Position numbers and translations under genes: made by a program. A DNA stretch of 64,000 nt, taken from contig CACZBD010000001.1 in the NCBI GenBank assembly GCA_902779305.1, forward strand, positions 1 through 64,000, given 5' to 3'. The DNA is from an uncultured Lachnospiraceae bacterium (lineage in GTDB: Bacteria > Bacillota > Clostridia > Lachnospirales > Lachnospiraceae). The stretch's first letter is position 1. The number at the start of each line of letters is the position of its first letter. The notes under the pieces are model-generated. The model saw only the letters and a program-made list of their open reading frames with translations, did not search any database and had not been told where the DNA came from. Positions 7,580 to 56,257 of the stretch are shown here, piece by piece.

Positions 7580-8280
7580 TCTACCTGGCGGATATCAGCG
7601 GCTGCGGGGAAGAAGACCTGCAGTCCGTCTGCACGGCGCGAAAAGAATATGCCGCAAAGTATAAAACAGAGCGGGACAGGGTCCGCTCTTTAGGCGCTGC
7701 GTACCTGCTCGGGATCGCCCTGAAAACGGAGGGCTATACCGGCAGGGCTGACGTGGAGATCCTGCATGATGAGGCGCAGAAACCCTATCTGACGGATCCT
7801 GCCCTGCAGGATGTATGCTTCAGTTTAAGCCATGCAAAGGATTATGTTGCCGTCGCGCTAGCCAAAGTCCCTGTCGGGATCGACATCGAGAGGATCAGAC
7901 CGTATCAAAGACCGCTTACGGACCGCTTCTTTTGTGAACAGGAAAAAGCATATATCCTGAAGCGGGAAGAAGAGATGGACCTTGCATTTACAAGGATCTG
8001 GACGCTGAAAGAAAGCTTCTTAAAAGTCACGGGCAAGGGGCTTTCGGGCTTAAATACCTGCGCAGTCTTGCCGCATGAAGTCCTTACCGGAAATGAAGGG
8101 ACAAAAGACAGCGGAAATGCCCTGCAGATGTTTTCCTATCGGCAGACTTATGATGAACATACCTACTGCGGGATAATTCCTGCAGCACCTGAAGGCTATG
8201 CGCTTGCGATCTGCATCCGAACGGACGACGGAACGGATCCGGAAGATGTAAAAATAAATTATGTAAACCTTAAAGGCTGA
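7576..8280 (+). CDS. 4'-phosphopantetheinyl transferase, Sfp type
   Basis: Sfp-type enzymes move the phosphopantetheine arm of CoA onto a conserved serine of carrier proteins. The 234-residue length matches the family. Visible motifs are FSLSHAKDYV (~res 87), the metal-binding GIDIE (~res 98) and WTLKESFLKVTGKG (~res 143), with the catalytic W-KE-K pattern intact. It overlaps the preceding gene by ATGA. The only carrier domain seen in the window is in the STAS-adenylation-condensation protein at 51434-54901, 43 kb away, which makes that protein a plausible substrate; this pairing is inference. Sfp-type enzymes generally serve secondary-metabolite carriers rather than fatty-acid ACP. Confidence 0.93.
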   Translation: MIYLADISGCGEEDLQSVCTARKEYAAKYKTERDRVRSLGAAYLLGIALKTEGYTGRADVEILHDEAQKPYLTDPALQDVCFSLSHAKDYVAVALAKVPVGIDIERIRPYQRPLTDRFFCEQEKAYILKREEEMDLAFTRIWTLKESFLKVTGKGLSGLNTCAVLPHEVLTGNEGTKDSGNALQMFSYRQTYDEHTYCGIIPAAPEGYALAICIRTDDGTDPEDVKINYVNLKG

Positions 8281-19147: not shown

Positions 19148-19185
19148 GATAAAAGCATGTGATCATCTTCTTGGAGGGGGCATTG

Positions 19186-20970
19186 ATGAAACAGGAAAGT
19201 AACATGCAACTGACTTCCAGACTGTTATTCCGCCTGTTGCCGGTACAGTTTTTTCTGGCGCTCGTAAGTTCGGTCAACGGTATCGTTTCGGGGTTATTTG
19301 CGACGAACTGTATCGGTGTCGATGCCATGACTGCGATCGGTCTTTACAACCCGTTCAATATGTTCACCGGTGCCATCAGTCTGATGATGGTCGGCGGCGC
19401 AACGATCCTTTGCGGGAAATATATCGGCAGAAATGAAACAGATAAAGTACAGGATGTGCTGTCGCTGAGCAACACGCTTTGCGTGCTGATCGCGGGCATA
19501 TTCATTGTGCTTTATCTTTTTTTGGCGATCTTTGACCTGACGGGATTCATCGCAAGAGATCCCGCAATCCGCCCGCTGTTCAACCACTATCTGGTCGGAC
19601 AGTCTTTCGGTGTCATGCCGCTCTTTCTGGGCAACCAGCTTGCGTCCTTTCTGTCCCTTGAGAATCAGGCGAAACGGACCACGTTTGCAAGCCTTGTCTA
19701 TCTTGCGGTGAATGTTTTCTTAAACTATCTGTTCCTGATCGTACTGAATGTAGAAAAGAAAGAATTTGCACTGGCACTGGCCTCCTCCATCGGCCTCTGG
19801 GTATTCTTCCTGCTGCAGACGCCCTATTTCTTCAAGAAGGATGTCAGTCTCCGTCTGTTTAAGAGCGGCTTTTCCTGGAGGATGAGCAGGGATATCGTGA
19901 AGATCGGGATCCCGGGCGCGGCCAGCAACGGCTACCAGACCCTTCGTTCCCTGATCGTCAATAACCTTCTGACAACCGTTCTTGCATCAAGCGGTTCCGC
20001 CGCGCTTTCCGCGTTTACGGCATCGGATACGCTGCTGCGTTTCGCATGGGCGCTGCCGACCGGCATGCTTGCGGTATCGAGAATGCTGATCAGCATCAGC
20101 ATCGGAGAAGAGGACAGACAGACGCTGACCGATGTGATGCGCAATATGTTCCGGAGATTTCTTCCGCTGATGAGCGTCATCTGTCTTGCGATCATCCTGC
20201 TGGCGAAACCTCTGGCGGGACTCTTCTACAGGCCTTATGAACTTCCGGTTTACAACATGACGGTCTGGGGATTCCGGATCCTTCCGGTCTGCATGCCGCT
20301 CAGTATCATCTGCATGCATTTTGTCTGCTATGCGCAGGCTTCGAACAAGCAGGTTCTGGTCCACATCCTGTCCCTGCTTGACGGCGTTGTCTGTGTGGCG
20401 GGCTTTACGGCGCTTCTGATCAGGAGCGTTGGCATGAACAGTGTCTATATCGCAAATGTCTTAAACGGGGTTGTTACCACGATCGTGATCGTCATGTATG
20501 CGGCAATCAGAAATAAAAAGATGCCCGGCAGCATGGACGAACTGATGGTGGTGCCTGAAGATTTCGGCGTTTCGGAAGATGCGCGCATGGACTTAAGCGT
20601 CAGAAGCGTTCAGGATGTGGTGACAGTCTCGGAACGCGTACAGAAATTCTGTACGGAGCACGGCATTGACGGGAAACGCTCCTATTTTGCTGCACTGTTT
20701 CTTGAGGAAATGGCCGGAAATGTTGTGGAACACGGGTTTTCCAAAGATCATAAACCGCATTCCGTTGACATCCGCGTTGTGCATAAGGACGACAGCGTGA
20801 TCTTAAGGATCAAGGACGACTGCATCGGTTTTAATCCCAAAGACCGGAGCACAGTTTCCGATCCGGATGATCCTGCAAAGAACATCGGGATCCGCATGAT
20901 CTATCAAATGAGCGAGAAGATCGAATATCAGAACATTCTCGGATTGAACGTACTGACGGCGAGGATTTGA
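19186..20970 (+). CDS. MATE-family transporter fused to RsbW-like GHKL ATPase domain
   Basis: Residues ~1-455 form a MATE/MOP-type transporter with about twelve membrane helices (for example NCIGVDAMTAIGLYNPFN and VGGATILCGKYIGRNETD near the N-terminus). Residues ~465-594 form a cytosolic HATPase_c_2 domain of the anti-sigma factor kinase type: N-box FLEEMAGNVVEHGF, G1 box RIKDDCIGFNP and a NIGIRMIYQMSEKIEYQ segment. RsbW/SpoIIAB-type kinases phosphorylate STAS proteins and release them in partner switching. Fusion to an exporter would couple transport to such a switch. ATG 19186 follows GGAGGGGG; an upstream GTG lacks one. First gene of a five-gene run, 4 bp before the HD-GYP gene. Confidence 0.88.
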   Translation: MKQESNMQLTSRLLFRLLPVQFFLALVSSVNGIVSGLFATNCIGVDAMTAIGLYNPFNMFTGAISLMMVGGATILCGKYIGRNETDKVQDVLSLSNTLCVLIAGIFIVLYLFLAIFDLTGFIARDPAIRPLFNHYLVGQSFGVMPLFLGNQLASFLSLENQAKRTTFASLVYLAVNVFLNYLFLIVLNVEKKEFALALASSIGLWVFFLLQTPYFFKKDVSLRLFKSGFSWRMSRDIVKIGIPGAASNGYQTLRSLIVNNLLTTVLASSGSAALSAFTASDTLLRFAWALPTGMLAVSRMLISISIGEEDRQTLTDVMRNMFRRFLPLMSVICLAIILLAKPLAGLFYRPYELPVYNMTVWGFRILPVCMPLSIICMHFVCYAQASNKQVLVHILSLLDGVVCVAGFTALLIRSVGMNSVYIANVLNGVVTTIVIVMYAAIRNKKMPGSMDELMVVPEDFGVSEDARMDLSVRSVQDVVTVSERVQKFCTEHGIDGKRSYFAALFLEEMAGNVVEHGFSKDHKPHSVDIRVVHKDDSVILRIKDDCIGFNPKDRSTVSDPDDPAKNIGIRMIYQMSEKIEYQNILGLNVLTARI

Positions 20971-38509: not shown

Positions 38510-39130
38510 ATGGAAACCAAAAAACTACTGATCAGCAGCACGAACGCTATGGACGCGGAAATGCTTAGGAAAGTGGACAGCTTCATGAAGGATGAGTGCT
38601 CTTTTGAAAAAAAAGACAACCTGCATGTGCGTCTTTTGATCGAGGAGACGCTTGGAATGCTGAAAGCGATGACCGGCAATTACAGCGCGATGCTCTGGAT
38701 CGAGGCAGGTAAGAGCAACTGCCGCCTGCATGTTCTGGCATCCTCTTTCATGGATATCAACAAGAAGAAGGAACTCTTATCCCTGTCGCAGGGCAAAAAC
38801 GCCTATGCAAAAGGGTTTATGGCAAAGCTTGGGGACATCATCGAAAACGGGATCTTAAACTACGAGAACGTGATGGCGCTGCAGCAAAAATACGGCTTGG
38901 GTTATGTGGATGTGGCATCCATGGGCGGCAATCCTTCCGAGATCATGTTTTCCTGGTCCTTAAACCAGTACAAGAAGTCTCTTTCCGAGGGGGAAGAAGG
39001 CGAAAAAGAGCAGACAGCCTGGGATGAGCTGGAAAAATCGATCGTCGCAAGCATCGCAAAGGATGTGCAGGTCGGCGTGAAGAAGGACCATGTGGAACTG
39101 CTGATCGACATGGAACTGACGGGAAAATAA
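38510..39130 (+). CDS. Unknown protein, possibly degenerate GHKL (RsbW-like) fold
   Basis: No family is recognised with confidence. The 206-residue protein is soluble. Its first half (DSFMKDECSFEKKDNLHV, then RLLIEETLGMLKAMTG and SAMLWIEAGKSNCRLHVLAS) has the same layout as the RsbW-like domain of the MATE fusion at 19186-20970: helix with LL-EE, then paired strands. The N-box asparagine and the G1 aspartate are missing, so ATP binding is unlikely if the relation is real. It begins 1 bp after the EAL stop and ends 3 bp before the shikimate kinase-like gene, so it is surely co-expressed with the EAL protein. Confidence 0.6.
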   Translation: METKKLLISSTNAMDAEMLRKVDSFMKDECSFEKKDNLHVRLLIEETLGMLKAMTGNYSAMLWIEAGKSNCRLHVLASSFMDINKKKELLSLSQGKNAYAKGFMAKLGDIIENGILNYENVMALQQKYGLGYVDVASMGGNPSEIMFSWSLNQYKKSLSEGEEGEKEQTAWDELEKSIVASIAKDVQVGVKKDHVELLIDMELTGK

Positions 39131-46220: not shown

Positions 46221-49046
46221 ATGAAGCAACAGACCGGGCAGACAAGGGCAGTGACCATTCTGAAAGCAGTATTTCTGCTACTGTTTTTCACGTCGCTGTT
46301 TTTTTATGTTTCCTACAATCTCTATGATCATTCCTACGGGTTTGCAAGCGAAGAACCGCTGAGCCTGGAAGACTGGACCGTGGTCATGCCCGACGGCAGT
46401 TCATTTCAGGTTCAAGAACCCTATGAAAAAGACCCCGCGTACGGCATCCCCTACAGGCTCATGACCCGCCTGCCCGAAAAGATGTCGCAGGACTATGAGC
46501 TTTGCTTCCTCTATTTTAATGACCTTGTCGTCAAAGTGGATGATGAAGTGCGGACGGAGTTCGTCAGGCAGCGGGATGTTAATCTGGTGGGCGGCATCGT
46601 GAAGGCTACCTATCTGATGCTGACCATTCCGAAAGAAGACGCCGGGAAAATGCTGGAACTGACCAGAGAACGCAGCAACACGGAACGGCGGATCTATCCG
46701 AGAGTGCTGCTCGGACCGCCGGATACGATCTACCGGTTTATGATAGATGAGTATGGCGCGGTATTTGCGATGTACCTCGTGCTTTTGGCGATCTCCGCCC
46801 TGATCGTTATCGCGGGCATTGTTCTTTCGATCTGGCTGAAGACCCCGATCGACATGCTGTATGCCGGCTTTTCGGCACTGATCACAACGGCATGGATGAT
46901 CTCGGATTCTTTTCTCTATCCGCTTGTTTTCAGACACAACTTTATCGACGGCACCGTTTCCTATCTGCTGTGCATGCTGATCCCGTTGCCGTTTCTGATC
47001 TATATGAATGCGCTGCAGAGAAACCGTCATGAGAAATGGTACCTGCGGCTGCAGGTGTTTTCCGTCGCATCGTTTCTTATTTTTTCCACGCTGCATTTTT
47101 CGGGGATCTGCCCGTTTTATAATACGCTTCCGCTTGTGGATACCGTACTTGCGCTCGATATCTTAGCCTGCATCGTGATCCTGACCATAGACATCGTGCA
47201 CGGACATATTGCGGAGTTCAAGTATACGGCGATCGGATTTCTCGGATTTTTCATTCTGGCCCTGATGCAGATCATCGTGATCTTTACGATGGACCTGAAC
47301 AATGACGGGATCCTGCTGCTGTTAGGCCTTCTGTTCTGGCTGGCCTGCGTCGTGATCCAGCAACTGCAGGAGATCAGGGAGGCCGATCTCGAGAAGAAGA
47401 GAGCCATGGAACTGTCCGACGCCAAGACAAGGTTCTTAGCCGGCATGTCCCATGAGATCCGGACTCCGATCAACTCGATCTTAGGCATGAACGAGATGAT
47501 CCTTCGTGAAAATCACGACGATACGATCGGCGGCTACGCGAAAGAGGTACAGAATGCCGGGAAGATGCTGCTGGCGCTGATCAATGATGTGCTTGATTTT
47601 TCCAAGATCGAATCCGGAAAACTCGACATTACACCCGCGGATTATGATCTTGGATCGCTGCTTTTTCAGGTGGTCTCGCTTGTCAAGGAGCGGGCAGGGG
47701 CGAAGGGCTTAGATTTTGACCTGCAGATCGCAGAAGGCATTCCGCGTGTTCTTTACGGGGATGATGTCAGGATCAAACAGATCCTGCTGAATCTTCTGAC
47801 CAATGCCGTCAAGTATACGGACCGTGGGAAGGTGGTCCTTTGCGTGTCCGGTGAACCGGGGGATGAAAACACCTGCAGGCTCTGCTTTGAGGTCAGGGAC
47901 ACCGGAAAAGGGATCCGGGAAGAGGAACAGAAAACGCTGTTTGATGCTTTCTCGAGAGCGGATCTGTCCAGGAACAGAAGCGTAGAAGGTACCGGACTCG
48001 GACTTGCGATCGTAAAGCGGATCGTGGATTCGATGGACGGCAGCATCAGCGTGGAATCAAAGTACGGAGAAGGCTCTGTCTTTCGCGTGATCCTGCCGCA
48101 GCCGGTCCGAAGCAGCGAGCCGCTGTCGCTTGAACTGAAACCGGAAGAGACACCTTCGCATGCCTACCGTTCCGCATTTACGGCACCCGGCGCCAAGATC
48201 CTTGCGGTGGATGACAATGCTGCGAATTTAAGCATTGTCAGACAGTTTTTGAAACAGACACAGGTGACGATCGACTGCTGCATGAACGGCAATGAAGCGT
48301 TCGCAGCATGCTGCAAGGTAAAATATGATCTGATCCTGCTCGACCATATGATGCCGGATCCCGACGGGATCGCGACACTTGCCAAGATCAGGAACAGTGA
48401 ACTTTCACTGAACAAAGATACAAGCGCGATCGTTCTGACCGCAAACGCATTGGCAGGGAGCAGACAGCTGTATATTGATGCGGGATTTGCGGATTATCTG
48501 ACCAAACCGATCGCGTCTGCGGTGCTCGAGGAGACCGTTAAAACGTATCTTCCGAAGGAACTGGTGATCGAAACCGGTCCGGACATCGAAGCAGGTCAGG
48601 CAGCGGAAACCGAACCGGCGATAGAACAAAACGCTTCGAAAGAAGGGAGAGTAACTTCTATGGATGCAGGATTCAGCGGTGAGAAAAACAACAAATGGGC
48701 AGGGATCAAAGAGATCGACTTTGATGCCGCCGTAGAGTATTGCGGCGGAGAAGAAGTGCTGGAACTGGTCATCGATGAGATCATCAAGGATCACGGCCCG
48801 CGTCTTAAGCGCATGGAAAAAGCGCTGAACGAAAAAGACTATGATACCTACCGGATCGAAGCGCATGCGATCAAAAGCAACCTTGCAACGATCGGCGCCA
48901 ATGAGATGAGCGAGAGAGCAAGACAGCACGAATACGCCGTCAAAGACAACAATATTGATTTTGTCCTGCAGGATCATGAAGCGTTCATGAACGGATATGC
49001 GGATCTTTGCAAAAGAATGGAGCAGGTCCTGAAGGGAACCGTATAA
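46221..49046 (+). CDS. Membrane hybrid histidine kinase with receiver and Hpt
   Basis: Using ATG 46221 (AGGGACAGGA upstream; an ATG at 46167 would precede the predicted mRNA start), the protein has 941 residues. One helix (LKAVFLLLFFTSLFFYVSY) and an extracytoplasmic domain of ~150 residues are followed by seven helices (~180-370), a 7TMR-DISM-like layout. Then come HisKA (SHEIRTPIN, His411), the ATPase domain ([22 protein letters not shown]), a receiver (AVDDNA, Asp708 in LLDHMMPDPDG) and an Hpt domain (AHAIKSNLATIG, His882). No output domain is present, so the Hpt probably donates phosphate to another regulator. It converges on the GAF-GGDEF gene, whose N-terminal half is similarly built. 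Confidence 0.9.
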   Translation: MKQQTGQTRAVTILKAVFLLLFFTSLFFYVSYNLYDHSYGFASEEPLSLEDWTVVMPDGSSFQVQEPYEKDPAYGIPYRLMTRLPEKMSQDYELCFLYFNDLVVKVDDEVRTEFVRQRDVNLVGGIVKATYLMLTIPKEDAGKMLELTRERSNTERRIYPRVLLGPPDTIYRFMIDEYGAVFAMYLVLLAISALIVIAGIVLSIWLKTPIDMLYAGFSALITTAWMISDSFLYPLVFRHNFIDGTVSYLLCMLIPLPFLIYMNALQRNRHEKWYLRLQVFSVASFLIFSTLHFSGICPFYNTLPLVDTVLALDILACIVILTIDIVHGHIAEFKYTAIGFLGFFILALMQIIVIFTMDLNNDGILLLLGLLFWLACVVIQQLQEIREADLEKKRAMELSDAKTRFLAGMSHEIRTPINSILGMNEMILRENHDDTIGGYAKEVQNAGKMLLALINDVLDFSKIESGKLDITPADYDLGSLLFQVVSLVKERAGAKGLDFDLQIAEGIPRVLYGDDVRIKQILLNLLTNAVKYTDRGKVVLCVSGEPGDENTCRLCFEVRDTGKGIREEEQKTLFDAFSRADLSRNRSVEGTGLGLAIVKRIVDSMDGSISVESKYGEGSVFRVILPQPVRSSEPLSLELKPEETPSHAYRSAFTAPGAKILAVDDNAANLSIVRQFLKQTQVTIDCCMNGNEAFAACCKVKYDLILLDHMMPDPDGIATLAKIRNSELSLNKDTSAIVLTANALAGSRQLYIDAGFADYLTKPIASAVLEETVKTYLPKELVIETGPDIEAGQAAETEPAIEQNASKEGRVTSMDAGFSGEKNNKWAGIKEIDFDAAVEYCGGEEVLELVIDEIIKDHGPRLKRMEKALNEKDYDTYRIEAHAIKSNLATIGANEMSERARQHEYAVKDNNIDFVLQDHEAFMNGYADLCKRMEQVLKGTV

Positions 49047-49090
49047 AAAGTCCCGGAAACAAAACCGGAACCGGGAGAAGGAATATGAAA

Positions 49091-49128
49091 AGAAAAAACC
49101 GGAAGAAGATCAAGGTCTTCTTCCGGTT
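49091..49128 (-). terminator. Terminator of the minus-strand GGDEF gene, overlapping its stop codon
   Basis: A perfect 13-bp stem (49097-49109 with 49116-49128, 6-nt loop) is followed, on the minus strand, by TTTTTTCTTTTC. The 5' arm encodes the last residues of the GGDEF protein (GTGRRP), and the TGA is at the loop border. Confidence 0.85.
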
Positions 49129-51287
49129 CCTCTTCTGTCAAAGTGCCCTTCGTAGTAGGCACGTTTTTCTTTGTACATCTGTTGTTCCGCCATTTCTTTG
49201 ATAGGCTTGATATCGGTAACGCCGGCTTTGCAGTAAACACAGCCGATGGAAACGGAACGTCCTTTTTTGTCGATGTATTTGCGGACCTGCGCGACTTCAT
49301 CGTTAAAGACTGCTTCATTGTCGGCAAAATCATAAATGATGAACTCGTCGCCGCCCATGCGGTAGACGTTCTGATAACCGAATACGACGGCAAGGCTGGT
49401 CGCGATATCGATGATCATGGAATCGCCGGCATCGTGTCCCAAAGTGTCGTTGGTATGCTTCAGACCGTTGATATCGCACATGATATAGCCGAACGGCTTG
49501 CTCACGTCTCTTTCTCCGCCTTCAAATTCATCCAAAGCCCTGCGGTTCTTTACCCCGGTCATTTCATCATGATAACTGTTCTGCAACAGGATGTTCTGTT
49601 CATCCCGCTGGGAGACCATCTGGGCAAATACGAAGGAGAGCAGCCTTAAGATCTCCGAAGCTTCATTGATATAGGCAACGGGCGGATTGTCAACACCGAA
49701 GAACCCCACATATTTTCCTTCGATCTCCAGAGGCCCTGTGACAAGCGCATGAACGTCCTGGCTGATCAGGACTTCAGAGATCCGCTCGCTGACTTTGCGG
49801 TATTTATCCGCATCGTCGATGAGGATATGATGATTTTTCTTAAATTCGCTGTACCAGACCTCGATCACGTTATCGTAAGGGATATCCTGCCGGTTGGCGA
49901 TCTGCGGATGCACGCCCATCTTGCACCATTCGTAGGTGTTGGAAAAGGTGCCGTCCAGCTGGTCTTCGAAGATATAGGCGCGGTCCGCATGCAGCTGTGT
50001 GCATACATATTCGAGCACTTCGTTGATCCTGACATCCGCATCCTGCGCGCTTGCCGCATACTGCAGCACCTTGTTGATCACGCGGTCCCGTTCGATGGCG
50101 TTCTGGTCCCTGGTCCACCAACGGAGCACCTGAATGATGATCGCAAGCAGCAAAAGCAGCAGTCCGATCCGGAAGAAATTGCCGTGTCCGGAAAGCATAT
50201 GCGATCTGTTCTGGGTTTCGAACACAAAGGTGTCAAGAACTGCCGTGACTATAAAGGCTCCGATCCCGATATAGAAGAAGGTCAGATGGGTCGGCGTGTT
50301 CAGCTTCCGGCAGACGATCTCATTGTCTACTAAGATCACGATGATCAGTACCAGCATGGAAAGGTAGGACGTATAGATGATCGGCGTCAGAAGCGTCATA
50401 TCGATATTCAGGAAATAACGCAGGTAGAGCATGACGGAAAAACATGCCGCCGGGATCCAGAAGGCAAGCTGCGGATAGAGCGGGCGCTTCTTCAGCGTCA
50501 TGGAATTGACGAAACGTACCAGCGGATAGGCCGCCAGATGGATCAGCGTATAATCCATGACCCGGCAGGCAATCACACAGCCTTTGACATATTGGATCAG
50601 GCCCGTGTCGACAAAACACCACATGCCAAGGATCATCAAAGAAGCGCCGAGCGCGGCCAGATTATAGGTCAGCGCAGCCTGCTGTTTCGGGATAAAGAAA
50701 TAAATGATCAGCATCAGAAGCCCGAAGGAGATCACCAGAAGCGAAAAGATCACCGGAAGATAGCGGTTTCTGACGACGATGTGCGTAAACGCTTCCGGAG
50801 AGCAGAGGAAAATATTGCCGATCCGGCCGCTCGAGTGGTTGTCAAAAACGGAAGTAACATCCAGATCGACCTTCTTCCCGGCGTAATCGGGACACAGAAC
50901 GACCGTGTGGAAAGCGGTCCCGTATCCTTTTCCGGTCAGATTTTCTATCGTGTCATAATGATAGAGCTCTTTGCCGCCGAGCGTAAATCTGAACGCCGCA
51001 TTTCTGCTGATGAGACACAGCGCAGGATTGTCGGGAAGTTCATCCGGAAGTGTGCAGGAAAGATGCATTTCTCCGTTAAAATCAGCGGCGGAGGTCTCGA
51101 ACAGATCAAAAGTCCTGCCGTCATCCGTCTGCCAGCTTGCGGTAAGGTCCACAATGCGGTCTTCATCCTGCCCGATCACAAAGCCGTTGAAATCCGTAAA
51201 AAGAAACAGATAGAAGATCAGGCCTGCCGTGAGCAGACAGAAAAGGACCAGATATGGAATTGCATATTTTTCTTTTCTGTAATTCAT
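49110..51287 (-). CDS. 7TM - GAF - GGDEF diguanylate cyclase
   Basis: The 725-residue protein has an N-terminal helix (YLVLFCLLTAGLIFYLFLF), an extracytoplasmic domain (~res 30-175) and seven helices (~180-385), like 7TMR-DISM sensors. A GAF-like domain (~400-555; LHADRAYIFEDQLDG, GPLEIEGKYVGFFGVDNPP) and a GGDEF domain (~565-710) with intact YRMGGDEF follow; no RxxD inhibitory site is seen. It should synthesise c-di-GMP in response to an external and a cytosolic cue. A promoter TTGCAT-N17-TAAGAT (51322 down to 51294) would start transcription at or next to the ATG, and no ribosome site is evident, so the mRNA may be leaderless or the true start internal. Confidence 0.9.
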   Translation of the reverse strand: MNYRKEKYAIPYLVLFCLLTAGLIFYLFLFTDFNGFVIGQDEDRIVDLTASWQTDDGRTFDLFETSAADFNGEMHLSCTLPDELPDNPALCLISRNAAFRFTLGGKELYHYDTIENLTGKGYGTAFHTVVLCPDYAGKKVDLDVTSVFDNHSSGRIGNIFLCSPEAFTHIVVRNRYLPVIFSLLVISFGLLMLIIYFFIPKQQAALTYNLAALGASLMILGMWCFVDTGLIQYVKGCVIACRVMDYTLIHLAAYPLVRFVNSMTLKKRPLYPQLAFWIPAACFSVMLYLRYFLNIDMTLLTPIIYTSYLSMLVLIIVILVDNEIVCRKLNTPTHLTFFYIGIGAFIVTAVLDTFVFETQNRSHMLSGHGNFFRIGLLLLLLAIIIQVLRWWTRDQNAIERDRVINKVLQYAASAQDADVRINEVLEYVCTQLHADRAYIFEDQLDGTFSNTYEWCKMGVHPQIANRQDIPYDNVIEVWYSEFKKNHHILIDDADKYRKVSERISEVLISQDVHALVTGPLEIEGKYVGFFGVDNPPVAYINEASEILRLLSFVFAQMVSQRDEQNILLQNSYHDEMTGVKNRRALDEFEGGERDVSKPFGYIMCDINGLKHTNDTLGHDAGDSMIIDIATSLAVVFGYQNVYRMGGDEFIIYDFADNEAVFNDEVAQVRKYIDKKGRSVSIGCVYCKAGVTDIKPIKEMAEQQMYKEKRAYYEGHFDRRGTGRRP

Positions 51288-51293
51288 GCATTT

Positions 51294-51322
51294 ATCTTAC
51301 CATACGCAAGAAGAATATGCAA
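51294..51322 (-). promoter_or_regulatory. Promoter of the GAF-GGDEF gene
   Basis: Read on the minus strand: TTGCAT (51322-51317), 17-bp spacer, TAAGAT (51299-51294). Start of transcription is predicted at about 51287, the first base of the ATG. Confidence 0.5.
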
Positions 51323-51342
51323 AAAAGGTTCGGCCCAAAAAG

Positions 51343-51358
51343 GTACTAAATTCAGTAC
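51343..51358. promoter_or_regulatory. Palindromic operator-like site GTACTAAATTCAGTAC
   Basis: Arms GTACT and AGTAC separated by 6 bp lie between the divergent GGDEF and STAS-synthetase genes, upstream of both promoters. A plausible regulator site; no protein can be named. Confidence 0.35.
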
Positions 51359-51390
51359 AACAGAAAAAAATAGGAACATGGAGCAAAAGA

Positions 51391-51399
51391 TGATAAAAT
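51391..51399 (+). promoter_or_regulatory. Extended -10 promoter of the STAS-synthetase gene
   Basis: TGATAAAAT matches an extended -10 (TGn + TAAAAT); no good -35 box is present at 17 bp. It lies 35 bp before the chosen ATG. Confidence 0.45.
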
Positions 51400-51433
51400 A
51401 GAGAGCGGAATGATGAAAAGCGGAGGCTTTGCA

Positions 51434-54400
51434 ATGGAGAAAAGATTCGAAAACGGAACGGTTTACATAACGCTATGTCCGAAGCTGGACTATGACAGCG
51501 CGATGAAAGCGGACGAAGAAGTATTTACCTATATGAAAGAACTCGAAGAGGCACAGGAAGACGGCTGCATCAAAGCTATTGTCCTGAATGCGGAGGAGCT
51601 TCTCTATACTTCCTCTGCGGGGATCCGGCTGCTCCTGAAACTGAAAAAGAAGATCAGCGACATGCGGATCACGAATGTCAGCGATGAAGTCTACGAAACG
51701 ATCAGCATCACCGGCATGGAGGAACTGTTCGGCCTGGAGCCTGTCAACGAACAGAAAGTTGAAGATTCCTTCGACCCTGTCTTTACCGTGGCAAAAAGCT
51801 TCGGCGTCACATCCGGGGAAGAGAGAGGGCCTGACTATGTCTTTCATGTGAATGCGTCCGTCCCGCTCACCGGCATCAACGAGAGCGGCAGCGCGGCCAA
51901 ATTCGTGCCGGTCACGAAACTGTTCGAGCTGCAGGCAAAGGATCATGCGAAAGAGATCGCCGTGACTTCCTCCAAAGGATCCTATACCTATGAAGAACTG
52001 AACCGGGCGGCCAACAGGATCGCAAACACGCTCATTTATGCGGGGGCTAAGGCAGAGGATGTGGTCTGCATCATGCTCGAGCGCGGGATCGAGATCTATG
52101 CCGCAACACTCGGCATTCTGAAAGCCGGCGCCGCCTATACGATCGTCAATCCGAAATACCCCGACGACAGGATCGAATATATCTACCGGGATGCCGGCTG
52201 CAAATACATCATTTCTTCCAAAGATATGGTCTACGAGCGTCTGGAGCTTTTCGTCGACAGCCTGCAGAAGCGGCCGCTGTTTTTCGAGCATCTGATGACC
52301 TGGCCGGATGATAAGAACCCTGCAACAGAGATCTGTCCGCAGGACCTTTGCTACCTGATCTATACGTCCGGATCCACCGGAAAGCCCAAGGGCGTGATGA
52401 TCGAGCATAAGAACCTGAGCAACTTCCTTCTGCTCTGTCCTGAAAATCATGAGGTCTTAGGTCTTGCGCAGAAAGGGAACTGCTTCCTTGCCATGGCGCA
52501 GATGACCTTTGATTTTTCCATCATGGAAGAATATATTCCGCTTGTGATCGGCAAAAAGGTTGCGCTTGCGCTCTATGAGGAGATCGCGAATCCCGAGCGC
52601 ATGATCGAATTTATGAATGAAAATCAGGTGGATGCAGCCTGCTTTACGCCAAGCTACCTGTCCGGCCTCTTAAGGCTTCCGAATGCAAAAAGCGCCGTCT
52701 CGAGACTGAAAGTCATTGATTTTGGCGCGGAGGCGTTCCCGGGGACGCTTTATACCAGGATCCGGGAAGTCAATGATTCGGTCTATATCATGAACGGGTA
52801 CGGGCCGACGGAATCCACCATCAGCTGTACCATGAAAGTCGTGGATGATGCGGAACACATCACCATCGGAAAACCGAATGCAAATGTCTTTGTTTTTGTC
52901 GCGGATGAGCAGAACAGAGAAGTGAAGAAGGGCGAAAAAGGCGAGCTGCTGATCTGCGGGGAAGGTGTTGGAAGAGGTTATGTAAACCTACCGGAAAAGA
53001 CGGCCGCATCCTTTATCGAATTTGCAGGCATGCGCTGCTATAAGAGCGGTGATCTGGTCAGGATCAACGAAAACGATGAGATCGAGTACACCGGGCGAAA
53101 AGACAATCAGGTTAAGATCCGCGGCTTAAGGATCGAACTCGGTGAGGTCGAATCCGTCATTTCCGAAATGCCCGGGATCAATCTGTGTGTCGCAAGTTCC
53201 TATAAAGACCGCTATCTCTGCCTGTATTACACATCCTCTTCAGGGCTTAAGGAAGAGGAAGTCCGTGCATATGCCAAAGAACATCTGGCCCATTATATGG
53301 TGCCGGACTTCTACATGCTGCTATCCAGAATGCCGATGACGCCGAACCAGAAGATCGACAGAAAAGCGCTGCCGGAGCCTTCCATAAAGGAAGAAGTCTT
53401 AACACCTCCCGAAACCGAAGAGCAGAAGAAACTGCTTGAGATCCTGCGTACGGTGATGACGGATCAGGAATACGGGATCGATACGAACCTGATCGACAGC
53501 GGCATGTCCTCTCTGGACATCATGCTGTTTTTGTCGTTGCTCGGTGAAAACTATGCGGTGGGCATGGGGATCGCCGATCTGAACGCGCATCCGACGATCC
53601 GGGAACTGGAGCAGTTCTTAAAGAGCGCGCCGAAGATCAAAAAGCACGAAAGGAAAGACAGATATCCCGCGCTGATCCTGCAGACCGTCGACTACTTTGC
53701 GACGGCTTCCGGCGAGGGCAATCTGAACATGCCGACGATATACGAGCTGGATCCGCAGGTTGATGATGAACGGCTCAAAGAAGCGATCTATACGGCCATG
53801 GAAGCGCATCCGGGCCTGACGATGCGCTTTGAAGTACAGGACAATGCGCTCTATCAGATCCCGCAGAGTGATTTCAGAAACTATGAGATCGAAACCGTGA
53901 CCATGACGGATACGGAGTTCAGCATGAAGAAACGCAGCTTAAGCCGGCGCATCGCTCCGGATGCGAAATGGCAGTTCTGCTTCCGGATCATCCGTACGGA
54001 AACGAGGAAATTCCTGTTTGCGGATTACAGCCACCTGAATTCCGACGGAACATCGATCGGGATCGTGATCGAAGACATCATAGCGGCTTATGAAGGCAAA
54101 AAATGCGAGGCGGAGACCATGACGCTGTTTGATTTTGCCGATTACATGTCTGATTTCTGGGAAACGAAAGCAGGAAAACGCTGCATCGAATTCTATATGC
54201 TGGGACTGAAAGACGTAGGCGGCCCGGTCACGCTGCCTGCGGACTTAAACGGTACAACCTGGGAACCGAAGCGCTTCAGCAAAAAGGCGGATGTGGATGC
54301 AAAACTTTTCAGTGAATTCTGCAGGAAAAATCACCTGACGGAAAGCACGCTGCTTGCGGGCGCGTTAGGGATCGCGCTCTGTCAGGCCTCGGGCAGGGAA

Positions 54401-54901
54401 GCGGTGGCCTTTTCCTACGGGTTCAGCGGAAGGAACGATTCGAGACTGACAAATACGGTCGGTTATATCGCAACGCTTCTGGAAGTGTTCTGCCATATCA
54501 AAGGGCAGACTTCGCTGCTTGCCTATCTGCAGAGATTCCAGAAAGATCTGCTCAATCTGATGATGTTCCCGTCGATGCCGATCCCGGAAGTGACGAAAGC
54601 ATATCCGAACGCGATCGACGTTACGTTCCTCTATCAGCCTTACGAGAGCCCGGTCTATGACATGGACGGGACGAAGGTGCGCGCGGAGTTTTTGCAGGAG
54701 ATCATGCCGAACGAGAGCGTCAAGACGATCTTTCAGGTTTCGCAGGATCAGGACGGCGGCTTCACCTGGGATATCGACTATCACGGGAATCTGTATTCGG
54801 AAGACTGCATCCGCAACGTTTATGAGCGGATCGAGCATGCCCTGCAGGCGATCTTAACGGATGATGATCTGCAAAAGGCAATGGAGTTCCAAACTTCGTA
54901 G
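51434..54901 (+). CDS. STAS - adenylation - carrier - condensation fusion (NRPS-like)
   Basis: Residues 1-105 are a STAS domain with LYTSSAGIRLLL, matching the SSAG phospho-site of anti-sigma antagonists. An NRPS adenylation domain follows (~160-645): LIYTSGSTGKPKGVM (A3), FDFSIMEEY (A4, with the Asp that binds amino groups), NGYGPTEST (A5), YKSGDLVRI (A7), GRKDNQVKIRGLRIELGEVE (A8) and NQKIDRKAL (A10 lysine). A carrier domain (DSGMSSLDIM, Ser ~690) and a C-terminal condensation domain with HLNSDG (HxxxDG, His867) complete 1155 residues. It should activate an amino acid, load it on the carrier and condense it with an acceptor; product unknown. ATG 51434 follows GGAGG by 7 nt. It stands alone, next to the divergent cyclase gene. 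Confidence 0.9.
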   Translation: MEKRFENGTVYITLCPKLDYDSAMKADEEVFTYMKELEEAQEDGCIKAIVLNAEELLYTSSAGIRLLLKLKKKISDMRITNVSDEVYETISITGMEELFGLEPVNEQKVEDSFDPVFTVAKSFGVTSGEERGPDYVFHVNASVPLTGINESGSAAKFVPVTKLFELQAKDHAKEIAVTSSKGSYTYEELNRAANRIANTLIYAGAKAEDVVCIMLERGIEIYAATLGILKAGAAYTIVNPKYPDDRIEYIYRDAGCKYIISSKDMVYERLELFVDSLQKRPLFFEHLMTWPDDKNPATEICPQDLCYLIYTSGSTGKPKGVMIEHKNLSNFLLLCPENHEVLGLAQKGNCFLAMAQMTFDFSIMEEYIPLVIGKKVALALYEEIANPERMIEFMNENQVDAACFTPSYLSGLLRLPNAKSAVSRLKVIDFGAEAFPGTLYTRIREVNDSVYIMNGYGPTESTISCTMKVVDDAEHITIGKPNANVFVFVADEQNREVKKGEKGELLICGEGVGRGYVNLPEKTAASFIEFAGMRCYKSGDLVRINENDEIEYTGRKDNQVKIRGLRIELGEVESVISEMPGINLCVASSYKDRYLCLYYTSSSGLKEEEVRAYAKEHLAHYMVPDFYMLLSRMPMTPNQKIDRKALPEPSIKEEVLTPPETEEQKKLLEILRTVMTDQEYGIDTNLIDSGMSSLDIMLFLSLLGENYAVGMGIADLNAHPTIRELEQFLKSAPKIKKHERKDRYPALILQTVDYFATASGEGNLNMPTIYELDPQVDDERLKEAIYTAMEAHPGLTMRFEVQDNALYQIPQSDFRNYEIETVTMTDTEFSMKKRSLSRRIAPDAKWQFCFRIIRTETRKFLFADYSHLNSDGTSIGIVIEDIIAAYEGKKCEAETMTLFDFADYMSDFWETKAGKRCIEFYMLGLKDVGGPVTLPADLNGTTWEPKRFSKKADVDAKLFSEFCRKNHLTESTLLAGALGIALCQASGREAVAFSYGFSGRNDSRLTNTVGYIATLLEVFCHIKGQTSLLAYLQRFQKDLLNLMMFPSMPIPEVTKAYPNAIDVTFLYQPYESPVYDMDGTKVRAEFLQEIMPNESVKTIFQVSQDQDGGFTWDIDYHGNLYSEDCIRNVYERIEHALQAILTDDDLQKAMEFQTS

Positions 54902-54945
54902 CACATCGTTAACTTCTTGTACTCTGTACGAAAACCTAAGAAATG

Positions 54946-55081
54946 TGCTATAATGATCTTTGGCAGACCGCTTACGGGCAAAGTGAATGTTCGTAGCATA
55001 AGAATGAATTATAAGACACGCATATATCATAAGCGATATTTATCTTATAAGATGTACAGCCATTCTTTTCCGCGGTCCGCC
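54946..55081 (+). ncRNA. Structured RNA or long leader upstream of yhaO-like gene, unassigned
   Basis: An extended -10 (TGCTATAAT, 54946-54954) predicts a transcript starting near 54961. From exactly there the sequence can fold into one nested rod: GGCAGACCGC (54962-54971) with GCGGTCCGCC (55072-55081, one mismatch), AAGAATG (55000-55006) with CATTCTT (55061-55067), TTATAAG (55009-55015) with CTTATAA (55044-55050), and ATATC with GATAT at the tip. The left side bulge can form a small hairpin (TTACG/CGTAG). No T-tract follows, so it may be a leader of the exonuclease operon. It matches no RNA family I recognise. Confidence 0.5.
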
Positions 55082-55150
55082 GGTTTAGCTATGAGGGGAA
55101 ATTTCCCGGAAATCCCGGGGAGTATGATCGATTAAAAAGGGGAAAATCAG

Positions 55151-56257
55151 ATGAAGATCATTCATTGTGCGGATCTGCACCTGGATTCGCCCATGCGGGC
55201 CAATCTGGATGCAGCCAAAAGCAAGGAACGGAAGCTGGAGCTGCTGGATACTTTCCAGAATATGGTAAAGTATGCGGCGGACGAATCCGTGGAAGCGATC
55301 CTGATCGCAGGAGACTTATTCGACAGGAAGGTCGTTTCCAAAACAGCGATCAATGCATTCTTAAGACAGGTCGAAACCCATCCCGAGATCACATTCTATT
55401 ATCTTCGCGGCAACCATGATGCCATGAGTCTGCCTATCGCAGCGGGGCTTCCGGACAATCTGAAACTGTTCTCGGATTCCTGGACCCGTTATGTGATGAA
55501 TCCCGAAGGAAAAGGAAATATCGTGCTCCACGGCGTGGAATATAACGGTGTGAACGAGAACTCGATCTATGACAGTCTGTCACTGAATCCCCGTGATTTT
55601 AACATCCTGATGCTACACGGGCAGACGACCGAGCACAATATGGGGGATCGCACCGAATATATCCATGTCAAAAAGCTTGCGGGACGCGGGATCGATTATC
55701 TGGCGCTCGGCCATGTGCACGCTTTTGCAAAAGAAAAGATCGATGAGCGGGGCACGTACTGTTTTCCGGGCTGTCTTGAAGGCAGGGGATTTGATGAGTG
55801 CGGATCCCATGGCTTTGTGCTGCTTGAGATCAGCGAGGAGCAAGGCACTTACAGCATGACTTTTGTTCCTTTTGCAAAGCGGACTCTTTATACGGTAGAA
55901 GTTGACGTGAGCAACTGCATGCGTTCGGAAGAGATGAGAGAACGCGTGGAACAGGTTGTTACGGAATGCGGCTTTGGCGAAAGCAGTCTTCTGAAGATCA
56001 TCCTGACGGGGACCGTGGATGTCAACTGTGAGAAGGACCTTGATTATATCCTCCATCCCGTTAAGAGCAGATTCTATTTTGCCAAGCTGTATGATGAGAC
56101 CAGAATGGAGGTTGATTTCAGGATGTATGCGTTTGATGAGTCTCTGAAGGGAGAGTTCATCCGCAATGTGCTTGCATCCGATCTGACGGATGACGAAAAA
56201 GGGGAAGTCATCCATTACGGCCTGATGGCGCTTCGCGGGGAGGAGATCGAAAAATGA
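55151..56257 (+). CDS. Mre11/SbcD-like metallophosphoesterase, YhaO type
   Basis: The 368-residue protein is a calcineurin-type nuclease subunit: HCADLHLDSP (metal motif DxH, ~res 5), AGDLFDRK (GDxxD, ~res 56), YYLRGNHDA (GNHD, ~res 84), LMLHGQT and ALGHVHAF (GHxH, ~res 186). All phosphoesterase motifs are intact. With the overlapping ATPase gene it forms a YhaO-YhaN pair, the Firmicutes relative of SbcD-SbcC that acts on DNA ends. ATG follows AAAAAGGGGAAAA. The stop overlaps the next gene by 4 nt. A long leader with strong potential structure lies upstream. Confidence 0.93.
   Translation: MKIIHCADLHLDSPMRANLDAAKSKERKLELLDTFQNMVKYAADESVEAILIAGDLFDRKVVSKTAINAFLRQVETHPEITFYYLRGNHDAMSLPIAAGLPDNLKLFSDSWTRYVMNPEGKGNIVLHGVEYNGVNENSIYDSLSLNPRDFNILMLHGQTTEHNMGDRTEYIHVKKLAGRGIDYLALGHVHAFAKEKIDERGTYCFPGCLEGRGFDECGSHGFVLLEISEEQGTYSMTFVPFAKRTLYTVEVDVSNCMRSEEMRERVEQVVTECGFGESSLLKIILTGTVDVNCEKDLDYILHPVKSRFYFAKLYDETRMEVDFRMYAFDESLKGEFIRNVLASDLTDDEKGEVIHYGLMALRGEEIEK

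Follow-up and report, generated by a model that had tools for sequence, protein, structure and literature searches.

A STAS domain fused to a single-module peptide synthetase in Lachnospiraceae, with partner-switch genes beside related synthetases

Introduction

Peptide synthetases with partner-switch genes as neighbours have been described in Methanobrevibacter ruminantium M1, which has two nonribosomal peptide synthetase (NRPS) clusters, mru0066-0071 and mru0512-0516 (Leahy et al. 2010, PMC2812497). In one, the synthetase is accompanied by an anti-sigma factor antagonist, a MatE efflux protein and two serine phosphatases; a separate cluster includes a phosphopantetheinyl transferase (PPTase), a phosphatase, an antagonist and a serine/threonine kinase. 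The authors proposed roles in sensing, regulation of NRPS expression and export. In this archaeal host the antagonist is a separate gene, whereas in the protein described here the STAS domain lies inside the enzyme. The protein is encoded at positions 51434-54901 of a 64,000-nucleotide stretch (the window; positions 1 to 64,000 of contig CACZBD010000001.1, assembly GCA_902779305.1) from an uncultured Lachnospiraceae bacterium. The fusion combines two known kinds of protein, a partner-switch STAS and a synthetase, and the main new result is its genomic context: switch genes stand beside related synthetases in other genera.

The Bacillus switches SpoIIAA-SpoIIAB-SpoIIE and RsbV-RsbW-RsbU share with this system the STAS fold, the position of the serine and the families of the candidate partners (HATPase_c_2 and SpoIIE-type PP2C). 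However, they govern sigma factors, whereas the window STAS is fused to an enzyme. Indigoidine is a peptide synthetase product. Its control in Vogesella indigofera involves an RsbW-like domain in TciR, but TciR is a receiver-RsbW fusion of a two-component system, in an organism that according to the authors has no RsbV homolog (PMC12826045). In SypA-SypE of Vibrio fischeri the phosphorylation of a STAS protein governs a target outside the known sigma factors (PMC12826045, PMC8256260), although SypA is free-standing and the window STAS is fused. The output of SypA has been termed post-transcriptional (PMC12826045), and transcription of biofilm genes is also spoken of (PMC8256260). A STAS-enzyme fusion as such is already known, because an Anabaena glycosyltransferase carries an N-terminal STAS domain (PMC8256260).

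On the enzyme side, the window protein has the adenylation (A), carrier (PCP) and condensation (C) domains of nonribosomal peptide synthetases with intact core motifs, its nearest solved relatives being LgrA by sequence and DhbF by fold. It differs from them in its N-terminal STAS domain and in being a single module that ends in a condensation domain. OaaA, OaaACP and OaaC of the gut bacterium Coprococcus likewise provide adenylation, carrier and condensation functions, which release the product onto a free small amine. They are, however, three separate proteins with a fatty acyl substrate, and their description contains no word that begins with STAS (PMC13142362). The window domains lie in one chain and so do not form an Oaa-type set of separate proteins.

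Results and discussion

One chain with STAS, adenylation, carrier and condensation domains

The gene is a single uninterrupted frame of 1155 residues on the forward strand (Table 1), and its ATG matches the MEKR starts of two relatives (G313 and G309). An earlier note, made from the letters alone, had read the domain order as STAS, A, PCP, C and held that this reading would fall if no STAS profile matched residues 1-105. Such a match is present, and all five Pfam domains exceed their curated cut-offs in that order. The SSAG (residues 60-63), A10 lysine, carrier serine (in GMSSLD) and HxxxDG that the note had reported are likewise intact. Its statement that the condensation domain is last, with no thioesterase, also holds: neither a thioesterase nor a reductase model matched the protein (Pfam, E 0.1). 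Ser693 is invariant in six aligned members and HxxxDG is retained in 7/7 family members compared. Collectively, the chain has the A, carrier and C domains of a nonribosomal peptide synthetase with intact catalytic motifs, and a candidate PPTase that could load the carrier is present in the genome.

Table 1. Positions, in window coordinates, of the STAS-synthetase gene, its parts and two unlinked genes of interest
Feature	Position	Strand	Identification
GGAGG, ribosome-binding-site-like	51422..51426	+	7 nt 5' of the ATG at 51434; read directly from the sequence
STAS domain, residues 1-104	51434..51745	+	PF01740 at residues 19-102, 30.0 bits (cut-off 22.6); fold match to SpoIIAA/RsbV; S61 invariant in 25 aligned STAS
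S61 codon, predicted phosphoacceptor	51614-51616	+	Alignment with SpoIIAA
Linker, residues 105-157, low-confidence, poorly conserved	51746..51904	+	Model confidence and identity to fused relatives
Adenylation domain, residues 158-650, A10 lysine K640	51905..53383	+	PF00501 (AMP-binding) at 164-516, 262.5 bits (cut-off 29.9); PF13193 (AMP-binding_C) at 571-640, 29.1 bits (cut-off 24.5)
Carrier (PCP) domain, residues 660-732, Ser693 in GMSSLD	53411..53629	+	PF00550 (PP-binding) at 666-729, 33.6 bits (cut-off 20.8)
Condensation domain, residues 742-1147, HLNSDG 867-872	53657..54874	+	PF00668 (Condensation) at 763-1147, 122.7 bits (cut-off 30.6)
Candidate phosphopantetheinyl transferase, 234 aa	7576..8280	+	Sole PF01648 match reported for the genome, 65.1 bits at 7870-8214; unlinked to the fusion
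MATE transporter with C-terminal RsbW-like HATPase_c_2	19159..20970	+	PF01554, 68.9 bits; PF13581, 44.1 bits

If the GrsA numbering is applied, the adenylation pocket would consist of D F M C I F G I S K. Pocket residues vary among the STAS-fused proteins, so that a single substrate common to all of them is unlikely. An explanation of the locus by a regulatory RNA or a promoter has no support: Rfam gave no match at gathering score in 49000-56000, and both promoter-like sites (3 found against 3.9 in shuffles) and terminator-like sites (5 against 4.1) occur at chance level in 51200-55250.

The STAS domain resembles partner-switch antagonists

Modelled alone with AlphaFold2 on a 25-row alignment, the STAS part reached a mean predicted local distance difference test score (pLDDT) of 89.9. 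The ten best matches of this model in the PDB are all anti-sigma-factor antagonists, and complexes of SpoIIAA with SpoIIAB and of RsbV with RsbW are among them. In the alignment with SpoIIAA, S61 falls on the first serine of DSSG, at position 57 of a 116-residue chain, which we take to be S58 on the assumption that this chain lacks its first methionine. The domain therefore combines the STAS fold with a serine at the position taken as S58. S58 is the phosphosite of SpoIIAA (PMC11418112). Across 25 STAS sequences, drawn from fused proteins, fusions to APH-type phosphotransferases (STAS-APH) and free proteins, S61 does not vary; residue 60 is S, A or C, and the only other invariant columns are Y58, G63, R65 and G94.

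A STAS domain can also serve in docking, as in the transporter YchM, where it binds acyl carrier protein. The domain might thus be a docking or dimerisation element that is not phosphorylated and that holds the carrier, a second carrier protein or another subunit. The model does match the YchM STAS-ACP structure 3ny7, weakly (rank 48, E 0.046), and a site for docking a partner carrier would be useful to a chain that ends in a condensation domain without an acceptor carrier of its own. However, STAS domains of SulP transporters appear only from rank 11, behind the antagonists, the predicted phosphoacceptor serine is invariant in the fused proteins as in the others, and related synthetases adjoin STAS genes that are accompanied by a phosphatase and a kinase from the matching families. 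We consider a pure docking role unlikely.

The fusion is conserved and has a single origin within the genus

The earlier note had asked how many genomes carry STAS N-terminal to A-PCP-C: the count is 8/37 genomes of the genus, the window genome included. The relatives that span STAS through the condensation domain share 62% (G313), 55% (G312), 49% (G315) and 43% (G304) identity with the window protein. G325 and G328 are relatives at 42% in which STAS was recognised on translation, and in G309 the contig runs out once the adenylation domain has begun. All six members scanned match STAS, AMP-binding, AMP-binding_C, PP-binding and Condensation (Pfam, E 0.001). No STAS was seen at 21 other synthetase loci annotated in the genus, the other genomes not having been searched further for a diverged STAS.

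A frameshift or a missed stop between two genes, which the note had named as a further ground for refuting its reading, is ruled out by the recurrence of the fusion in diverged relatives, and so is a chimera. Indeed, the STAS-A-PCP-C fusion is real and conserved in close relatives. It is very improbable that the STAS part is an evolutionary leftover, or that the fusion is an artefact of assembly or gene calling. The linker is admittedly unconserved (block-mean pLDDT 25-54 over residues 101-160 in the whole-protein model; where it can be aligned, 13-32% identical to that of six fused relatives), one of eight relatives (G313) holds an in-frame TAG, and other STAS-enzyme fusions exist in these bacteria. 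Yet the fusion is found in eight genomes, S61 is unvarying, and STAS identity to the three nearest relatives (54, 48 and 46%) tracks that of the C domain (55, 44 and 36%).

When 39 adenylation domains of the genus were placed in a tree, the six used from STAS fusions grouped as one clade with 100/100 support, and 0/500 shuffles were as clustered. With other genera added (52 domains), the closest group to this clade, at 100/99 support, is formed by the first-module adenylation domains of four synthetases with three modules each (G056, G157, G655 and G701), its sister group; neither tree includes G313 or G309. The window protein shares 50-51% identity with these sisters in the adenylation domain and 25-29% in the condensation domain, and the one sister compared with Pfam, G056, terminates in a reductase-type NAD_binding_4 domain. 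From its place in the tree, the fused protein resembles the first A and carrier domains plus the next C domain of an assembly line, with STAS in front.

Profiles were also run against 397 genomes of the family and 392 of the order (overlapping samples, with at most three candidates scored per genome). Among the matches listed, no other STAS-adenylation match begins in the STAS part, and those outside the genus begin at model position 41 or later. Similarly, none of the 8 listed of 2657 matching plasmid records covers STAS, as each begins at or beyond query residue 106. STAS and synthetase domains are joined in a different way in another genus (L255, 7588-9186), a second kind of fusion in which a STAS-condensation protein of 532 residues is followed by a 1023-residue adenylation-condensation gene and a MATE gene.

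Partner-switch genes beside related synthetases

A free STAS gene adjoins the synthetase at three of the four sister loci (G056, G655 and G701). Four of the loci described here (L202, L213, L206 and L215) are arranged like operons. In G056 (L202) the order is MATE-HATPase, synthetase, PPTase, STAS and SpoIIE phosphatase, each gene identified by Pfam. G655 (L213) shows MATE-HATPase, synthetase, a 228-residue gene and STAS, followed after one further gene by SpoIIE and a free HATPase_c_2; SpoIIE and HATPase_c_2 are Pfam identifications, and the 228-residue gene is put in the PPTase position by gene order. The order in G701 is that of G655 as far as the contig end, and in G157 a MATE-HATPase alone lies beside the synthetase. 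Related arrangements are STAS, a synthetase-type frame, SpoIIE and HATPase in G114 (L206; the last two by Pfam), STAS, a synthetase-type frame and SpoIIE-HATPase in G258, and SpoIIE-HATPase, STAS, synthetase and MATE-HATPase in G374 (L215). Cluster genes without a Pfam identification were named by hidden Markov models (HMMs) built here, by which the synthetase-type frames of G114 and G258 were scored for the adenylation domain only.

Across the family, as scored with these HMMs, STAS lies within 10 kb of a synthetase at 12 of the 57 loci examined (11 free genes and the L255 fusion), and at least one of STAS, SpoIIE and RsbW-like HATPase occurs in the stretch read at 18; these 57 are most of the list and not a random sample, nine having been picked because STAS was seen nearby. 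L213 and L214 are excluded from the count, L209 and L210 are counted as one, L211 (STAS about 14.5 kb away) stands outside the 12 and inside the 18, and at least five listed loci fall outside it (G089:C108, G127:C8, G147:C52, G171:C4 and G354:C1). HATPase matches under 15 bits were dropped, and many stretches end at contig ends. Among 22 loci from the order search, three have STAS within 10 kb and seven have any switch gene, one of these (L270) on an unchecked HATPase call.

The proximity exceeds expectation: of the STAS hits in genomes with listed synthetases, 7/54 lie within 10 kb of one against 0.53 expected, and 0/200,000 simulations reached seven, with both inputs ranked by likeness to the window protein. 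The test used 141 STAS rows with the own genus omitted, left out synthetase frames under about 900 residues and the ten genomes outside the STAS sample (G345, G349, G354, G358, G369, G374, G375, G380, G408 and G414), and took genome sizes as entered for 20 genomes and as 2.8 Mb for the rest. As a separate observation, G317 has a SpoIIE phosphatase-HATPase_c_2 fusion (L171, 6566-8596) downstream of a synthetase, about 0.4 kb away.

Under another reading, the switch does not act on the synthetase. The fused STAS would still be an anti-anti-sigma-like protein, which would titrate an RsbW-like kinase and so control transcription or another pathway, perhaps reporting the abundance or loading of the synthetase. 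The genome does hold free STAS, RsbW-like and SpoIIE-type proteins, such genes beside the methanogen synthetases were taken as regulators of NRPS expression (PMC2812497), and SspH of Streptomyces, which consists of a HATPase only, alters polyketide synthase and NRPS transcript levels (PMC9137472). However, no sigma-factor-like gene was noticed among the open reading frames of these clusters, in which no sigma-factor profile search was made. The methanogen, further, is an archaeon, and archaea are not known to have bacterial sigma factors, which hints at another target in its clusters. Fusing STAS to an enzyme would also be an odd route to a titrating factor, and we regard this explanation as rather unlikely.

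Candidate partners in the window genome and in fusion relatives

The window genome has three PF01740 STAS proteins, namely the fused synthetase, a STAS-phosphotransferase and a free STAS of 98 residues that adjoins an RsbW-like kinase of 133 residues. The standalone kinase lies in the region of C11:86889-87263. A single membrane-bound SpoIIE phosphatase (C11:198598) carries 5TM-LYT and a HAMP match that narrowly misses its cut-off, and there is a second, weak PF07228 match (26.4 bits). Both the RsbW-like and the SpoIIE-type families are therefore present, unlinked to the fusion, and elsewhere they are linked to related synthetases. The MATE-HATPase protein of the window, 30 kb from the fusion, is a possible partner. 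Three MATE proteins with C-terminal HATPase_c_2 occur in this genome (the window copy, C1:170688-172442 and C26:23099-24844); a match to the window copy is found in 28/37 genomes of the genus (E 1e-20), and several of these genes adjoin synthetases (L161, L162 and L164).

By eye, the genes next to the fusion read as one divergent gene of GGDEF type and as genes of the SbcCD type. In G304, the base after the stop of the fused gene is already the start of a MATE gene, and a STAS-phosphotransferase lies about 5 kb upstream. A neighbour in G312 (L048, 6031-8196) was rejected as a phosphatase and is a chemotaxis-type receptor. The 206-residue protein at 38510-39130 of the window is not claimed as a divergent kinase, having no Pfam match and -0.7 bits to the RsbW profile built here. 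Its relative of about 210 residues in G315 (L099, 712-1344) stands directly after a STAS gene and a few kb ahead of a SpoIIE gene; at 3.1 bits to the same profile, it may be a very divergent kinase-like partner.

Proposed mechanism

The reading that we prefer, at roughly even odds (about 0.5), is that the fused STAS belongs to a partner switch, with an RsbW-like kinase and a SpoIIE-type phosphatase, that governs the synthetase after translation. In this scheme, the adenylation domain would activate an amino (or other carboxylic) acid, the carrier would hold it as a thioester, and the terminal condensation domain would hand the acyl group to an amine acceptor. By analogy with OaaC (PMC13142362), release onto a free amine or another acceptor by a chain-terminal condensation domain without a thioesterase could plausibly occur. 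The N-terminal STAS would be a once free RsbV/SpoIIAA-like protein of a partner-switch cluster, now covalently joined. An RsbW-like ATPase, either free or the C-terminal domain of a MATE exporter, would bind the unphosphorylated STAS and phosphorylate S61, and a SpoIIE-type phosphatase would reverse this on a sensed signal. The activity of the synthetase, or its association with a partner, would thereby be switched. The comparisons above show the fusion and its conservation, the conserved serine, the single clade of fused adenylation domains and the clustering of STAS, phosphatase and kinase genes with related synthetases, while the phosphorylation of S61, the kinase and phosphatase, the active state of the enzyme, its substrate, the acceptor and the product belong to the inferred part of the scheme. 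Most economically, a regulator at first encoded next to a synthetase would have been incorporated into it, which would make the synthetase, or its docking to a partner, the target of the switch; the fusion points to the enzyme itself.

The earlier note had proposed a serine kinase/phosphatase switch on the synthetase. Its support is indirect, consisting of the switch genes beside related synthetases in other genera, three of the four sister loci among them, the invariant serine, and the standalone kinase and phosphatase in the genome; no candidate adjoins the gene in this genome.

Several observations weigh against this mechanism. The window genome has no kinase or phosphatase gene next to the fusion, and PF13581 exceeds its curated cut-off in 7/8 genomes, the exception being the fusion carrier G315. 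In the family, 39/57 loci show no STAS, SpoIIE or RsbW-like HATPase in the stretch read, so that with STAS within 10 kb at only 12 the link between switch and synthetase marks a subset. The N-terminus scores under the cut-offs of both NCBIfam antagonist models (TIGR00377, 41.2 against 53.45 bits; TIGR02886, 19.7 against 114.75), and we accordingly do not class the STAS part among the anti-sigma factor antagonists. The model of the whole protein has low confidence (mean pLDDT 65.7, predicted template modelling score 0.48), too low for contacts between STAS and the catalytic domains to be read. Further, the nearest non-synthetase STAS relatives are STAS-phosphotransferase fusions, which means that an N-terminal STAS is also used on unrelated enzymes.

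These STAS-APH fusions of Lachnospiraceae resemble the window protein in carrying an N-terminal STAS with SSAG on an enzyme (by Pfam for L006), but the enzyme is a kinase-fold phosphotransferase and not a synthetase. They recur in the family (L006, 610-1794, on C5 of the window genome, and L009-L026); L010, L011, L019 and L026 have an RsbW-like tail and several have a SpoIIE-like gene upstream, by eye. Other STAS fusions seen by eye are a 1173-residue protein of a Lachnospiraceae metagenome-assembled genome (L121, 5915-9436) with an N-terminal STAS, a phosphotransferase-like part and further regions, and, in Selenomonas (L120, L122, L129, L133 and L136), STAS C-terminal to or in frame with a methyltransferase-like protein.

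A more specific form of the partner-switch mechanism, which we hold only tentatively and consider doubtful, is that synthesis and export are coupled by a split switch. The STAS half would sit on the synthetase and the RsbW-like half on a MATE exporter or a HATPase-dicarboxylate symporter fusion, and docking and phosphorylation of the synthetase at the exporter would decide product formation. If true, a partner switch would act directly on a metabolic assembly line and not on a sigma factor. Two Sodium:dicarboxylate symporters were noted near synthetases, one with an N-terminal HATPase_c_2-like part at 18.1 bits, below cut-off (L165, 10168-11811), and one with no HATPase match (L163, 9733-11346).

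Novelty and meaning

Among the open-access papers listed by the literature searches, none speaks of a STAS-synthetase fusion in its title or abstract, subscription journals lying outside the search. Partner-switch genes adjoining synthetases were already described in 2010 and were assumed to act on expression (PMC2812497). With STAS carried on the synthetase, the switch may act on the enzyme, and this can be tested on one protein by a single serine mutation. If the proposal is true, signals would control a class of anaerobe peptides directly at the post-translational level, with consequences for how such synthetases might be turned on.

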